Positions 34,281 to 60,418 of a stretch of DNA of 64,000 nt are shown in pieces. The position numbers and the translations under genes were made by a program. The notes under the pieces are model-generated. The model ran no database searches, was not told the DNA's origin, and worked only from the letters and a program-made list of their open reading frames with translations. Within the stretch, counting starts at the first letter, position 1; each line of letters starts with the position of its first letter. The DNA is from Trichocoleus desertorum ATA4-8-CV12. Lineage in GTDB: Bacteria > Cyanobacteriota > Cyanobacteriia > FACHB-46. The stretch is taken from contig JAHHIL010000005.1 of NCBI GenBank assembly GCA_019358975.1, forward strand, positions 62,001 through 126,000, given 5' to 3'.

Positions 34281-35789
34281 CTAGAAGTCAAAGTAGATGT
34301 AGGGCAGACTGCCTTGAGGGGCTAGCAACCAAACTAGGTAGAAGCTAATCGGGACTAGCAGCAGTTTTAGCGGCCAATTGATTTGTAACTTCAGGCCTCG
34401 GCTAAAAGCATAGGCAATGCCCATTAACGCCACAATTAACCACAACAATAGGGCGATTTGAGGTCGCTCCATTTTTAACCCTTCTATATAAATCTTTTGG
34501 GTAAATTGGGCATCCGCTGTGTGACCCCAAAGATGTTGCACCACCCAAAGCGAGTCTTTTAAATTGGGGAGGCGGAAGAAAATCCAGGCTGTAAACACCA
34601 TCAGTTGCGTAATCAACCAAGCAGTAACCCCACCCGGAATGCTGAGCCAGAAGGTTTTGAGTGCAGGGACGCGATCGCTATAAGCCTGTGTGAGTCGATG
34701 CACCACCAAAGCCAGCCCGTGGATGGCTCCCCAAACCACAAAGCCCCAAGCGGCTCCGTGCCAAATTCCCGCGATCAGCATCACAATCATCAGGTTGAGG
34801 CAGGTTCGCTGTAATCCTTGACGGGAGCCTCCGAGCGGAAAGTAAAGGTAGTTCCGCAGCCAGTCCCCCAGAGTCATATGCCAACGTCGCCAAAAATCGG
34901 CAATGCTGGTGGAGAGGTAGGGAAAGTCAAAATTTTGTGGCAGGTTGAAGCCGAGCAAAATGGCACTGCCTCGGACAATATCAACGTAGCCGCTGAAATC
35001 TAAATAAAGTTGCAAGCCGTAGGCAAAAGTGGCGAGCCACAAGTCACCGCTACCCGCCCGCTGGATATTCCCAAAACAAAGATCGACAAAAGTACCAATG
35101 TTGTCGCTCAAAAGCCCTTTTTTGAGCGCACCACAGGCAATCAGCCAGATCCCTTCTACTATCTGATCTGGCTTCGGAAACCGCTGTGCTTTAAATTGGG
35201 TGGCGAACAGGTGAAACCGGGTAATCGGCCCAGAAATCAACTTGGGAAAAAACAGTTTATAAGCAGAGAACTTGAGAAATTGCTGGGTGGCGGGAGCACC
35301 GCGATAGACATCGACCAAGTAGGCAATGCACTCAAACGTAAAGAAGCTTAGTCCTAGCGGTACTACTAGGTTTGCGTCTAGCCAACTAGCATTTTGCTGC
35401 GCAGCGGCCCAATTTAGCCCACCTCCTAGGCTGGAGAGTAAGAAAGGCACGTACTTAAAGCCCACTAGCAGCAGGACATTGGCGATGATGCCAAACCACA
35501 ATAACTGAGCTCGACGGCGATTCCAATCCTGTTGCGCGAACTGCCAGTCTTCAATTCGCCAATCGGGTGGCTCACCGATCGCTTGCCCAACCCGAAAATT
35601 TAGCCACAAACTCGCAAACAGCAGGGGAATATAGACCACCTGCAAGGAGGCATAAAACACCAAGCTAGCAATCAACAGGGTCCACAACCGCCACCACGGT
35701 TCCCGAACCGACCAGTAAATGCCGAGAATGATGAGCAGAAAGAGTCCGTAGGTCAGCGAAAGAAAGGTCATGGGTAGGAGCAGAACCAA
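34281..35789 (-). CDS. MBOAT family membrane O-acyltransferase (AlgI/DltB-like)
   Basis: 502 residues with many hydrophobic segments. AlgI/DltB-like landmarks: PLGLSFFTFECIAYLVDVYRG near residue 145-165, FPKLISGPITRF near 185, FSGYVDIVRGSAILLGF near 265-282, NFDFPYLSTSIADFWRRWHMTLGDWLRNYLYFP (in parts) near 286-318, and the catalytic histidine region GIWHGAAWGFVVWGAIHG near 342-360. Such proteins move acyl groups across the membrane to extracytoplasmic polysaccharide or teichoic acid. The upstream gene encodes an SGNH-domain protein, the usual partner that finishes the transfer to glycan. Target polysaccharide unknown; it may be the product of the cluster at 1-13 kb (speculative). Confidence 0.93.
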   Translation of the reverse strand: MVLLLPMTFLSLTYGLFLLIILGIYWSVREPWWRLWTLLIASLVFYASLQVVYIPLLFASLWLNFRVGQAIGEPPDWRIEDWQFAQQDWNRRRAQLLWFGIIANVLLLVGFKYVPFLLSSLGGGLNWAAAQQNASWLDANLVVPLGLSFFTFECIAYLVDVYRGAPATQQFLKFSAYKLFFPKLISGPITRFHLFATQFKAQRFPKPDQIVEGIWLIACGALKKGLLSDNIGTFVDLCFGNIQRAGSGDLWLATFAYGLQLYLDFSGYVDIVRGSAILLGFNLPQNFDFPYLSTSIADFWRRWHMTLGDWLRNYLYFPLGGSRQGLQRTCLNLMIVMLIAGIWHGAAWGFVVWGAIHGLALVVHRLTQAYSDRVPALKTFWLSIPGGVTAWLITQLMVFTAWIFFRLPNLKDSLWVVQHLWGHTADAQFTQKIYIEGLKMERPQIALLLWLIVALMGIAYAFSRGLKLQINWPLKLLLVPISFYLVWLLAPQGSLPYIYFDF

Positions 35790-35849: not shown

Positions 35850-38800
35850 TTAGGGGGTGTTAGCGGTTGAAGTTTGCGATCGCGGCCAAGGGATTAGGGG
35901 GTCTTGAGCCAAGCGGCTTGAGACTTCGTAGGCTCCGTAGCGATTCAGGTGACTAGGGTCAGAAAAATAGTCATTTTCAGCAGGCCAAAGCTGACTCAAA
36001 TCTCGAAAGACAAATCCATTCTCAGTGGCTAGCTGGAGCATCTGCTGGCGAAACTCAACTTCATGCTCCATCCGGACAGCATCTAAATAGTCTTGGGTCA
36101 GGGGTAGGTTCACAAAAACTAGGGGGATGTCTTGGGCTTGGGTAAACTGCACCAAAGACGTGAGGGCCTGCATTTGCTTGCCTTTCAACTCAAATGCATC
36201 ATAGTCGCTATCGTAGTCTCCCGAAACTTTGGCGTATTTCTGATAGTAAGTCGCGGGATTAAACCGCAGAGACAGTGGCAAGAAACCATCAAAATCGATT
36301 GCATAGAGGAGTGAATCTGCTTCAACTCCCTCAGCATTAGGCGAGGCTGATTTTGCCGCAAATTGGCCTTGAGTCGCCAGTAATTCCTCTAAAGTTGGAT
36401 TTTGCTTCAACACACCTGACCATTGTTGCTGCAATAACTGTTTCAGTTGATCGCGCTGGGCATAGGTTGCCGAAAAGGTACCCAAGGATTCATTCATCCA
36501 TTGGTTCAAGGCTTGATAACTAGCTGCCAAAGAAGTGCCAACAGCCTGGTTGGTATCAGAGGGCGTCCCTGCTGGAGTTGCAGTACTCAGGTTGTTTGTG
36601 GCGACTGAAGTTGCAGCGCTCGAAGCCGCACCATTCGGTGTATCAGGGATCTTACCCGCCAAAACTTGCCGATACCCTTCAGAAACAGCGACCGCGTTGT
36701 AAGTAATGTCAACTCGACCGCTGTTAAACGCTCGCGCCCCATCCGCCCACACAATCAGCTTCGGCATCTGGTCAGGCGTGAGCACCTGGCGCAAAATGAC
36801 ATCTACAACTTGAGCGGTCGCTCCATTTACCCCAAAGTTAAACACACTCAAGCCAGCGTAACCTTGAGTGGCCAAAGCTTTCTGGAGGGCGGCGGGGTCA
36901 ATGCCTCGCAAGGCTCTGGAACTTCCTATAACCAAGATGTCGGGGGGGCCAGATTCCGCGAGACGCTGATAGTAAAGGGCTAACTTTTCATCTAATTGAC
37001 GACTGTTGAAGGTGGGATAAGGCGATCGGGCTGCGGCCAGAATAGCAGCTGAAGTGGCAGTCGTTTTTAGCGGTTCTGCGGGTAAAGGTTTGGGGGCGAT
37101 TCCACTGCCATTTGCCAAGGCTTCTACTGGAGTAATTGATTCGGTAAAGCCAGATGCATTAAAGACTTTTTGATCATTCCCCTGAGGTTTCTTGAGCGAT
37201 ACCGGGGGTTTAGGCACAGCTAAGGGAGGACGTGGTCGGGTGGCCGCAGATTTCGTAGCTACAGACTCTTGAGTGGCCGATCTTTCTGCCGATCCTTCTA
37301 CCGCTCCTTTAGCGGATGCAGTTGTGGGCCGAGCATCTACCGAGGCTACATTGGTTCTCACTTGAAGAATTTGCCCCAAGACCCAGTCTGCTTGCAGGGT
37401 TAACAGCAGACCTAAGGTACCCCAAACAACAGCCACTGCTGTTGCCTTATAGCTGCCTTGCTGCCCCAAAGGTTGATCGTTGGGCAGGAATAACTGCGAT
37501 CGCAGCAAAATCTGTTGCAGCGTTTGAGTTACGCGCTGGGTCGTTTGGCTGACTGCTGCCTGTAGGGCTTCAGAAGTTAGCTCAGGGCGTAGACCAATTT
37601 CGTTGGGTTGGGTTAATAACTCATTGACATAAGCATCTGAAGCGGCAAACTCTGGAGTGGCTTCTGGTACGAGGCGATCGCGGGTAGCAAAGTCAGCGCC
37701 ATAACTCCACAATGGACGCTTCTGACCTGCGCGGCGGCCATACACCCGAATGCCTGCTACGTGAGAAATCTTGAGTTGCCGCACAAATTTAGCGACGGTT
37801 TGCCCCACCTGCTTTTGCTTGGGGCAAACGGGCGCATCGCTCATGATGTGCAACAAATCCTCTCGATCTAGGACTTGAATGCGTACTCCTCCAGTCGCCA
37901 AGCGCCGATCGAGGTTGGGGTTGAGTAGGCGACTCAATAAAAACTGCAAGGCAGGGCGATCGCCTTGTTGCGCCAATACCAGCGCTGAGTCTGTTAATGC
38001 GCCATGTTGAGCCGCAGGTAAGTTGAGCCAATCTACCCAAGCAGGCGCTTCCTGACCCGCCACCTGCCCGTAAAGAGTGGCTGCATGAATCCCTTGGGGT
38101 GCTAAAGCTTCCAGTAAAGTTGAAATTGTCGGGACTACCGTTGCTCGGCTGGGCGCTTCACTCGTTTTTTTGCCATCCGAGTTAGCAATACTACAAAGTA
38201 GATGCAGGGTTGATTCTTTTAGCTCTGCTACCACTTCAATTTTCTCTACGGCCAGGGGGCGATTGAGGAGGCGGGCGATCGCTTGTACATCTCCCCAACG
38301 CGCCCAGTCTTTGAGCATTTCATCGGGAGGGGTTAAGTCAACCTGCAGCCGCCAATCGGGTCGAGCCTCACCGCTGACCTGACTAAAAACTAGAGCGTCT
38401 CGAAAACTATCTAGTTCCAAACCTCGGAGCTTTTGCGCGATCGGCTCGGCGAGAGTCGCAGGATCGGGGCTGTAGGGTGCTTCACAGATAATCCAAAGCC
38501 GCTGGTTGCGATGCTGGTGATCGGTGGCAGCATCAGGCGTACAGGGAATCGCCTTAGCCGTTACTTCAACCGCAACTCCCATTGCTCCCAGGGTTTCACT
38601 CAAATAACGAGCGATCGCCTCTGGTTTACCTTGCTTTGCTAAAGTGCGGTTGGGAACCAAGAGGGCTGTACCTGCTGCCGAGGCAGAGCGAGGAGCTGTA
38701 GGGGCAGGAGCTTTGGGTTGAGTTGCTGTTGGCGAACTTGCCAGTTTATTAGAGGGTGGTCTATTGGCTTTCTGAGTCGTAGGAACTGCTTTGAGCGCAG

Positions 38801-39218
38801 TCGTGGCTGAGTCACGGGATTGTAGAGGCGGTTGCCGTAAGGCAAAGCTAGAGAGATCAGGAGGTGGGGGTTGGAGATGCTTCAGCTGTTCTAAATGCTG
38901 ATCGAGCTGGTTGAGATAGATGGGCTCTGACCAACTAGGGCGATCGCTCCCTAAGCCACGACCATAGAGGAAAATCTGGTAAATCGGATGTGGATCGGGA
39001 GGCAGCAAGGCAGCCAAATCTGCTTGAGCTAGCGCTTCTACCACGCGACTCATCACGACAGCCGAGTCCGGAGGTTGCGGTCCTTCACACAGAATATGGA
39101 GGAGATTTCCGCGCAACCTAACGTGGACCCGTACGCCATGCAAATTAATGGCACGGACAACCCACTGTGCGATGACGGCCTGACGACCTGAAGCCCGTTC
39201 ATTTACATTCACCATCAA
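35850..39218 (-). CDS. Large multi-module protein with C-terminal SGNH (DUF1574) domain
   Basis: 1122 residues. The first 540 or so residues contain four divergent copies of a roughly 100-residue module with the theme GV.V......L.I.CE.P...(D) then an alternation ending in R...W; clear copies begin near INLHGVRVHV (25), LGAMGVAVEV (205), a weaker one near 320 and GGVRIQVLDRED near 440. A membrane helix AVAVVWGTLGLLLTLQADWVLG is near 590-612. A Pro/Ala/Ser-rich linker leads to the SGNH domain: nucleophile in VIGSSRALRG near residue 766, NFGVNGATAQVV near 795 and the catalytic DxxH in FSDPSHLNRYGA near 1088. The C-terminal domain should be extracytoplasmic, the modules cytoplasmic. It is the upstream partner of the MBOAT acyltransferase, 60 bases apart. 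Confidence 0.85.
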   Translation of the reverse strand: MMVNVNERASGRQAVIAQWVVRAINLHGVRVHVRLRGNLLHILCEGPQPPDSAVVMSRVVEALAQADLAALLPPDPHPIYQIFLYGRGLGSDRPSWSEPIYLNQLDQHLEQLKHLQPPPPDLSSFALRQPPLQSRDSATTALKAVPTTQKANRPPSNKLASSPTATQPKAPAPTAPRSASAAGTALLVPNRTLAKQGKPEAIARYLSETLGAMGVAVEVTAKAIPCTPDAATDHQHRNQRLWIICEAPYSPDPATLAEPIAQKLRGLELDSFRDALVFSQVSGEARPDWRLQVDLTPPDEMLKDWARWGDVQAIARLLNRPLAVEKIEVVAELKESTLHLLCSIANSDGKKTSEAPSRATVVPTISTLLEALAPQGIHAATLYGQVAGQEAPAWVDWLNLPAAQHGALTDSALVLAQQGDRPALQFLLSRLLNPNLDRRLATGGVRIQVLDREDLLHIMSDAPVCPKQKQVGQTVAKFVRQLKISHVAGIRVYGRRAGQKRPLWSYGADFATRDRLVPEATPEFAASDAYVNELLTQPNEIGLRPELTSEALQAAVSQTTQRVTQTLQQILLRSQLFLPNDQPLGQQGSYKATAVAVVWGTLGLLLTLQADWVLGQILQVRTNVASVDARPTTASAKGAVEGSAERSATQESVATKSAATRPRPPLAVPKPPVSLKKPQGNDQKVFNASGFTESITPVEALANGSGIAPKPLPAEPLKTTATSAAILAAARSPYPTFNSRQLDEKLALYYQRLAESGPPDILVIGSSRALRGIDPAALQKALATQGYAGLSVFNFGVNGATAQVVDVILRQVLTPDQMPKLIVWADGARAFNSGRVDITYNAVAVSEGYRQVLAGKIPDTPNGAASSAATSVATNNLSTATPAGTPSDTNQAVGTSLAASYQALNQWMNESLGTFSATYAQRDQLKQLLQQQWSGVLKQNPTLEELLATQGQFAAKSASPNAEGVEADSLLYAIDFDGFLPLSLRFNPATYYQKYAKVSGDYDSDYDAFELKGKQMQALTSLVQFTQAQDIPLVFVNLPLTQDYLDAVRMEHEVEFRQQMLQLATENGFVFRDLSQLWPAENDYFSDPSHLNRYGAYEVSSRLAQDPLIPWPRSQTSTANTP

Positions 39219-59413: not shown

Positions 59414-60418
59414 ATGGTAGATTCGATTGAAAATATTACTAAGCAAGCCCGCCAAGGCAGTGTGGCCGCTATTATTCAAGTTTTGAATGACAAGCTGGCG
59501 GATTCTGGCGTGAGAACTAGAGCCATTTTTGCGGATGGCGTGCTACAGCTTTTGTGCGAAGCTCCTGATGTGGATCAACTGGAGCAATCTACCTTAGTTG
59601 AGCGGGTGCGTCAGATTCTAGAGGCGATTTCACCCCGTAATATTCGCCGCGTCAAAATTAACAGCCGCATTGTGCGTGAGCAACAATTGTTGTGGTTAGA
59701 GGAAATTAATCGCGACCCAGAAAACCAGGTGCTTTGGTCGCAAGAAATTACCCTGACTCGGCCTAACTTGTTCAAACAGTTCATGGAGGATTTGCAGAGC
59801 CAGCAAGCAGATCAATCAAAGTCTGGCATGCCAAAGACTCCATCTCCGCGTCAAGTCCGAGAGCAACGCCAATTTAAGCGTGGTGTGGTGGGTGGCACTG
59901 CGGCCAGCTTACTTTTGCTGTTGCTGGCTTGGGGCGTCTACAGTTGGTTCGGTCCCAAGTTGCAAGCAAACAGCCAAGCGAATACAGCAACATCTCCTGA
60001 TCCTGCCCAATCTCCTGAGCCTATTACGCCTGCGCCTGCTTCTCCCAACTCTACTGCCGCGATCGCCCCTAGCCCGTCTCCAGTTGCCTCAGTTAGTCCT
60101 AGCCCCAGTCCTGAAGCTGCTGCGATCGCCCCAACCTCTGCTCCAACTTCTGCTGACCCCTTCGCCGATGCAGTCAGGCTAGCTGAACAAACCGCCAGTG
60201 CTGGTAAATCAGCCCAATCCTCCGCCGATTGGTTAGCTCTAGCCGCCAAATGGCAACAAGCCTCCGATCTGATGAGCCAAGTCCCACCTCAAGACAAGCG
60301 CTACAGTATCGCCCAAGACCGCACCACCGTTTACCAACGCCACAGCGAAGCCGCCCTACAAGAAGCCAAAAAGAAACAAGGTCAAACTGCTAGCAAAGCT
60401 TCGGACCAACAGATTTAG
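59414..60418 (+). CDS. Single-module protein related to the 1122-residue SGNH protein
   Basis: 334 residues. Residues about 15-110 hold one copy of the module seen four times in the protein at 35850-39218: VAAIIQVLNDKLADSGVRTRAI in parts, LQLLCEAPDV, VRQILEAISPRNIRRVKINSR and LLWLEEINRDP. A membrane helix AASLLLLLLAWGVYSWFG lies near 160-178. The next 80 residues are an Ala/Pro/Ser-rich spacer, and the end has helical sequence with LALAAKWQQASDLMSQVPPQDKRY in parts. So the module faces the cytoplasm and the C-terminus faces out. Function is unknown; the arrangement hints at a sensor or scaffold. There is no partner acyltransferase next to it. Confidence 0.7.
   Translation: MVDSIENITKQARQGSVAAIIQVLNDKLADSGVRTRAIFADGVLQLLCEAPDVDQLEQSTLVERVRQILEAISPRNIRRVKINSRIVREQQLLWLEEINRDPENQVLWSQEITLTRPNLFKQFMEDLQSQQADQSKSGMPKTPSPRQVREQRQFKRGVVGGTAASLLLLLLAWGVYSWFGPKLQANSQANTATSPDPAQSPEPITPAPASPNSTAAIAPSPSPVASVSPSPSPEAAAIAPTSAPTSADPFADAVRLAEQTASAGKSAQSSADWLALAAKWQQASDLMSQVPPQDKRYSIAQDRTTVYQRHSEAALQEAKKKQGQTASKASDQQI

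Follow-up and report, generated by a model that had tools for sequence, protein, structure and literature searches.

Four copies of an undescribed cyanobacterial module precede the SGNH domain of a putative envelope acyltransferase

A four-module SGNH protein and its neighbors

We analyzed a 64,000-nucleotide stretch of Trichocoleus desertorum ATA4-8-CV12 DNA, here called the window. It contains a gene for a large SGNH protein, a gene for an MBOAT acyltransferase next to it, and a third gene encoding a smaller membrane protein. The features are listed below, with amino acid (aa) positions counted from the TTG start of the SGNH protein or from the start of the smaller protein.

34281..35789, reverse strand, MBOAT acyltransferase (DltB-like), presumed partner, 60 bp downstream of the SGNH gene on the same strand
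35850..39218, reverse strand, four-module SGNH (DUF1574) protein, 1122 aa from TTG, with orthologs
38901..39197, reverse strand, module copy 1 (aa 8-106)
38664..38900, reverse strand, linker between copies 1 and 2 (aa 107-185), disordered from aa ~116, conservation low (mean 0.52)
38322..38663, reverse strand, module copy 2 (aa 186-299), from hhalign, AlphaFold2 and conservation
38007..38321, reverse strand, module copy 3 (aa 300-404), of the four copies the nearest to the protein at 59414
37677..37994, reverse strand, module copy 4 (aa 409-514), bearing a near-invariant GVRxYGRRxGxxxPxW
37362..37448, reverse strand, predicted membrane helix (aa ~591-619), AlphaFold2 being among its bases
37044..37361, reverse strand, Ala/Pro-rich linker C-terminal to the helix, conservation low (mean 0.60)
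35889..37043, reverse strand, SGNH domain, Pfam DUF1574, with a variable insert at about aa 861-970
36915..36926, reverse strand, GSSR block (aa 765-768) with the putative catalytic Ser, invariant (80/80)
36822..36833, reverse strand, GVNG block (aa 796-799), I/V variation only (G[IV]NG)
35949..35960, reverse strand, DPSH block (aa 1087-1090) with the putative catalytic Asp/His, invariant
59414..60418, forward strand, single-module membrane protein with a SAQSxxDW-type tail
59414..59728, forward strand, its module copy (aa 1-103)
59882..59938, forward strand, its membrane helix (aa ~157-175)

An ATG at 39215, one codon after the TTG, would give an SGNH protein of 1121 aa. The protein passed the gathering score of DUF1574 (PF07611; 33.5 vs 29.1 bits), and the catalytic blocks of the SGNH superfamily (Ser, GxNG and DxxH) are all present, their conservation having been scored on the 79-80 sequences that cover each block. 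The Pfam match spans only part of the SGNH domain and leaves the modules outside. With 17.2 bits, the protein stays below the equivalog cut-off of DltD (TIGR04092, 150 bits). The DUF1574 family has no characterized member or function (PMC9487903).

The copies are related and share a predicted fold

The original prediction described this protein as four divergent modules of about 100 residues followed by a membrane helix and an SGNH domain, and both hhalign and AlphaFold2 agree with that layout. Profiles made for each copy from 80 orthologs matched one another with pairwise hhalign probabilities of 94.7-98.4%, whereas probabilities did not exceed 7.7% against the rest of the protein and 7.0% in 60 column-shuffled controls. 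It had been proposed that structure prediction would tell whether the copies share a fold; AlphaFold2, run with 35 sequences, gave the same order of elements, H-E-E-H-E-E (alpha-beta-beta-alpha-beta-beta), in all four. The pLDDT was mostly 90-98 in copies 3 and 4, about 75-95 in copy 2 and about 74-94 in copy 1, and a stretch of some 70 residues (aa ~115-188) between copies 1 and 2 was predicted to be disordered. The modules are as conserved (0.77-0.82) as the SGNH domain (0.82-0.84), carry a near-neutral net charge of about +0.9 and have a conserved YGRxxG...PxW hairpin region, in which the Arg of YGR is found in 66%. Judged by profile comparison and predicted structure, the four copies are one homologous domain of about 100 residues with one fold.

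The same module had been claimed to occur once in the protein at 59414-60418, and in a whole-genome search this protein retrieved copy 3 at E = 2.7e-4. Its parts also follow the predicted order, one module, then the helix and then a Pro/Ser linker, and its lone module was folded confidently by AlphaFold2 (pLDDT 89.7, pTM 0.81). Profiles built on single-module proteins from other genomes matched all four window copies at 98.9-99.7%. On these sequence comparisons, the module at 59414-60418 belongs to the same family as the four copies of the SGNH protein.

The tail of the 59414-60418 protein (60146-60367) has the pattern DPFxxAxxxAxxxxxxxQSAQSxxDWxxxxxxWxxAxxLMxxVP, for which Pfam gave no match. 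Further proteins of the genome (C3, C22) share it, and it also precedes some module-free SGNH paralogs (L228-L230).

The SGNH protein is paired with an MBOAT acyltransferase

An ortholog-seeded scan of 84,980 species yielded 376 relatives. The best 80 of these were examined, and all were cyanobacterial and carried exactly four modules (80/80). The four-module SGNH protein is thus an old, conserved ortholog family.

The neighboring protein (34281-35789) passed the MBOAT gathering score (PF03062; 106.2 vs 27 bits) and matched DltB of the PDB (6bug) with an E-value of 1.2e-28, but it remained below the DltB equivalog cut-off (TIGR04091; 155.5 vs 375 bits). As predicted, the protein that bears the four modules is a membrane-bound SGNH protein with an MBOAT partner: the MBOAT gene adjoins the four-module gene in 66 of 77 evaluable loci, the other 3 of the 80 being left out as cut by contig ends or truncated, and a linked MBOAT was absent at about 11 orthologs. 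Co-occurrence was then scored in 30 genomes picked for contrast. A close MBOAT ortholog (about 60-98% identical) was found in 20 of the 21 genomes with the four-module protein, mostly elsewhere in the genome, and in none of the nine genomes without it; the one genome with the four-module protein and no close MBOAT is 88% complete. Three genomes that presumably belong to Gloeobacter, an assignment that their G+C content fits, had only an MBOAT relative of about 40% identity. This co-occurrence ties the two proteins together functionally. Module-free SGNH paralogs served as a control. None had an MBOAT in the flanking sequence retrieved with it, and in several the N-terminus contains a hydrophobic stretch, so all they establish is that the SGNH domain can occur without modules.

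The arrangement is like that of DltB/DltD, PatA/PatB and AlgI/AlgJ, where the SGNH protein likewise spans the membrane once, has its catalytic blocks intact and adjoins an MBOAT protein. The SGNH protein described here has in addition a cytoplasmic arm of about 590 residues made up of the four modules, which DltD, PatB and AlgJ are not known to have.

In one genome (G020), three module proteins stand in a row (L087; C1:1073000-1078500) about 7 kb from the MBOAT ortholog (1084915); its four-module SGNH gene lies elsewhere, at 4165154.

The module is an N-terminal handle on many unrelated proteins

A profile search with the module and a mapping of its carriers, both proposed earlier, gave 5-12 matches per genome in 11 of 12 chosen cyanobacterial genomes, on unrelated partners. 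In an even sample of the phylum, matches were found in 78 of 292 genomes and 46 of 116 genera. No match was found in the three presumed Gloeobacter genomes, or in viral contigs and phages; two plasmids, both cyanobacterial, had matches. Its absence outside the cyanobacteria refers to the 84,980-species scan and the plasmid search.

Among 72 module proteins from the 11 genomes, the module lies no more than 40 aa from the N-terminus in 68, and in most a helix follows it. Their tails fall into about 36 clusters, one large cluster being partly joined by low-complexity sequence. Fusion partners include PGA_cap (capsule), S26 signal peptidase I, M50B-like, Pkinase/Ank, AAA, TPR, EcsC and pentapeptide domains. 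In the Trichocoleus genome itself, the module stands ahead of signal peptidase I, a PGA_cap protein and others, including a protein that by eye resembles DUF4177. The module is therefore a promiscuous N-terminal handle on many unrelated, mostly membrane, proteins; some module proteins (pentapeptide, TPR and kinase fusions) are soluble.

In 43 proteins with a single helix, K/R residues numbered 116 before the helix and 50 after it, with the bias in this direction in 31 proteins vs 8. Because this is the positive-inside bias, the module side is cytoplasmic, as had been predicted.

Several module proteins (L091, L099, L118, L121, L123, L129) resemble site-2-type intramembrane proteases; HExGH-like motifs were seen by eye in four of them, and Pfam M50B matches were sub-threshold. 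The Trichocoleus genome also has a 66-aa module fragment ending in a stop (L047; C21:5208-5372), whose counterpart in a genome of the same genus (G002), the M50B-like protein L099, is complete at 378 aa and carries the same module. By this sequence comparison, the fragment is probably a broken gene. Two tandem modules were seen in L122, L129 and L105, which shows that proteins outside the SGNH family differ in how many modules they carry.

The module is undescribed in the libraries searched

It had been asked whether the module is a Pfam family under another name. No consistent Pfam match was obtained for 74 isolated modules, and the 72 module proteins had no Pfam or NCBIfam family in common that might correspond to the module. 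A sequence search of the PDB found no relative, only weak, unrelated matches (E 0.006 or worse), and we found no description of the module, or of cyanobacterial DUF1574, in the open literature. The module is thus undescribed in Pfam, NCBIfam, the PDB by sequence and the open papers searched.

Foldseek with a single module found nothing in the PDB at E <= 1e-3; the nearest folds, type II KH, BolA-like and alpha-lytic-prodomain-like, are similar in overall topology (TM about 0.5). Matches of the whole four-module model (CidB, FliF, YscD, OsmY and others; TM about 0.1) were set aside as repeat artefacts. A type II KH identity was rejected as well, for the AlphaFold2 models have no GXXG loop and place a single helix between the two hairpins.

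Discussion

What do the modules do for the acyltransferase? The SGNH protein would be one half of a two-protein envelope acyltransferase, with the neighboring MBOAT protein as the other half. By analogy to DltB/DltD and PatA/PatB, the MBOAT protein would carry an acyl group through the membrane, for the SGNH domain to attach to an envelope glycan. Because the module is common to proteins that have nothing else in common, we regard the copies as docking handles. Each would bind one shared partner in the cytoplasm or at the membrane periphery, and having four of them would add avidity and place the acyltransferase with other module-bearing envelope enzymes. An adaptor role would agree with the existence of soluble fusions to pentapeptide, TPR and kinase domains. 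We give this reading as a whole, in which the SGNH/MBOAT pair is an envelope acyltransferase and its four-copy arm consists of docking modules used promiscuously in cyanobacteria, a probability of roughly 0.45. The anatomy, the kinship of the copies and the MBOAT pairing, taken jointly, are very probable, and the putative docking step is tentative, at somewhat less than even odds.

The original prediction had the modules sense or tether something in the cytoplasm and thereby control surface acylation. Its cytoplasmic side is borne out by the charge bias, and sensing or tethering is plausible, but the tie to acylation was too narrow: a dedicated controller of acylation is unlikely because many carriers of the module have nothing to do with acylation. 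The findings are better matched by a handle of general use, for docking or sensing.

The strongest rival to docking is that the module senses a small ligand, such as a second messenger or a metabolite, whose binding in the cytoplasm alters the activity of the attached protein. An N-terminal, cytoplasmic module on diverse outputs, kinases and proteases among them, would suit this; a sensor would show equal promiscuity and N-terminal placement, and the YGRxxG...PxW segment could form the ligand pocket. However, sensors less typically occur as four tandem copies, in soluble fusions to pentapeptide domains or joined to tails that look structural, and beyond the Arg of YGR there is no conserved set of charged residues. 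We hold a sensor to be unlikely, at perhaps half the odds of docking. A little less likely again is a self-assembly domain, comparable to ring-building or BON-type alpha/beta domains, that clusters membrane proteins into oligomers. The FliF MS-ring, YscD/PrgH and BON proteins do appear in the weak Foldseek list, but they arise only from the multidomain model, for which TM-scores of 0.08-0.12 are meaningless, and the single-module search favors the KH/BolA-like folds instead.

A KH-type nucleic-acid binder, tying membrane proteins to mRNA, the ribosome or the nucleoid, is improbable. The top PDB folds are indeed type II KH domains (Era, ribosomal S3), with probabilities up to 1.00, but the module lacks their second helix and the GXXG helix-loop-helix, and its near-neutral charge speaks against nucleic acid. 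Nor is there profile similarity: against real Era and S3 KH domains from eight cyanobacterial genomes, hhalign gave at most 2.8%, a weak test in which even the true pair Era-S3 reached only 13%. Equally improbable is a role mainly in membrane targeting or topology, such as sorting between plasma membrane and thylakoid: the module does stand before the first helix and gave no match in the presumed Gloeobacter, a genus without thylakoids, but soluble module proteins exist and at least 194 of the 292 phylum-sample genomes, which should include thylakoid-bearing species, had no match.

If docking is the right reading, the module might amount to a common docking code of cyanobacteria that recruits envelope enzymes, proteases, signal peptidases and kinases to one scaffold, with the four-copy acyltransferase as its highest-avidity client; this wider proposal is speculative and rather doubtful.

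A module found in 5-12 copies across most genomes examined, with dozens of partners, yet lacking a model in Pfam and NCBIfam, leaves a considerable hole in how cyanobacterial proteins are annotated. The four-copy acyltransferase is a good handle for finding the partner or ligand of the module, which, if found, would bear on how proteins of capsule formation, acylation, proteolysis and signaling are controlled from the inner side of the membrane.
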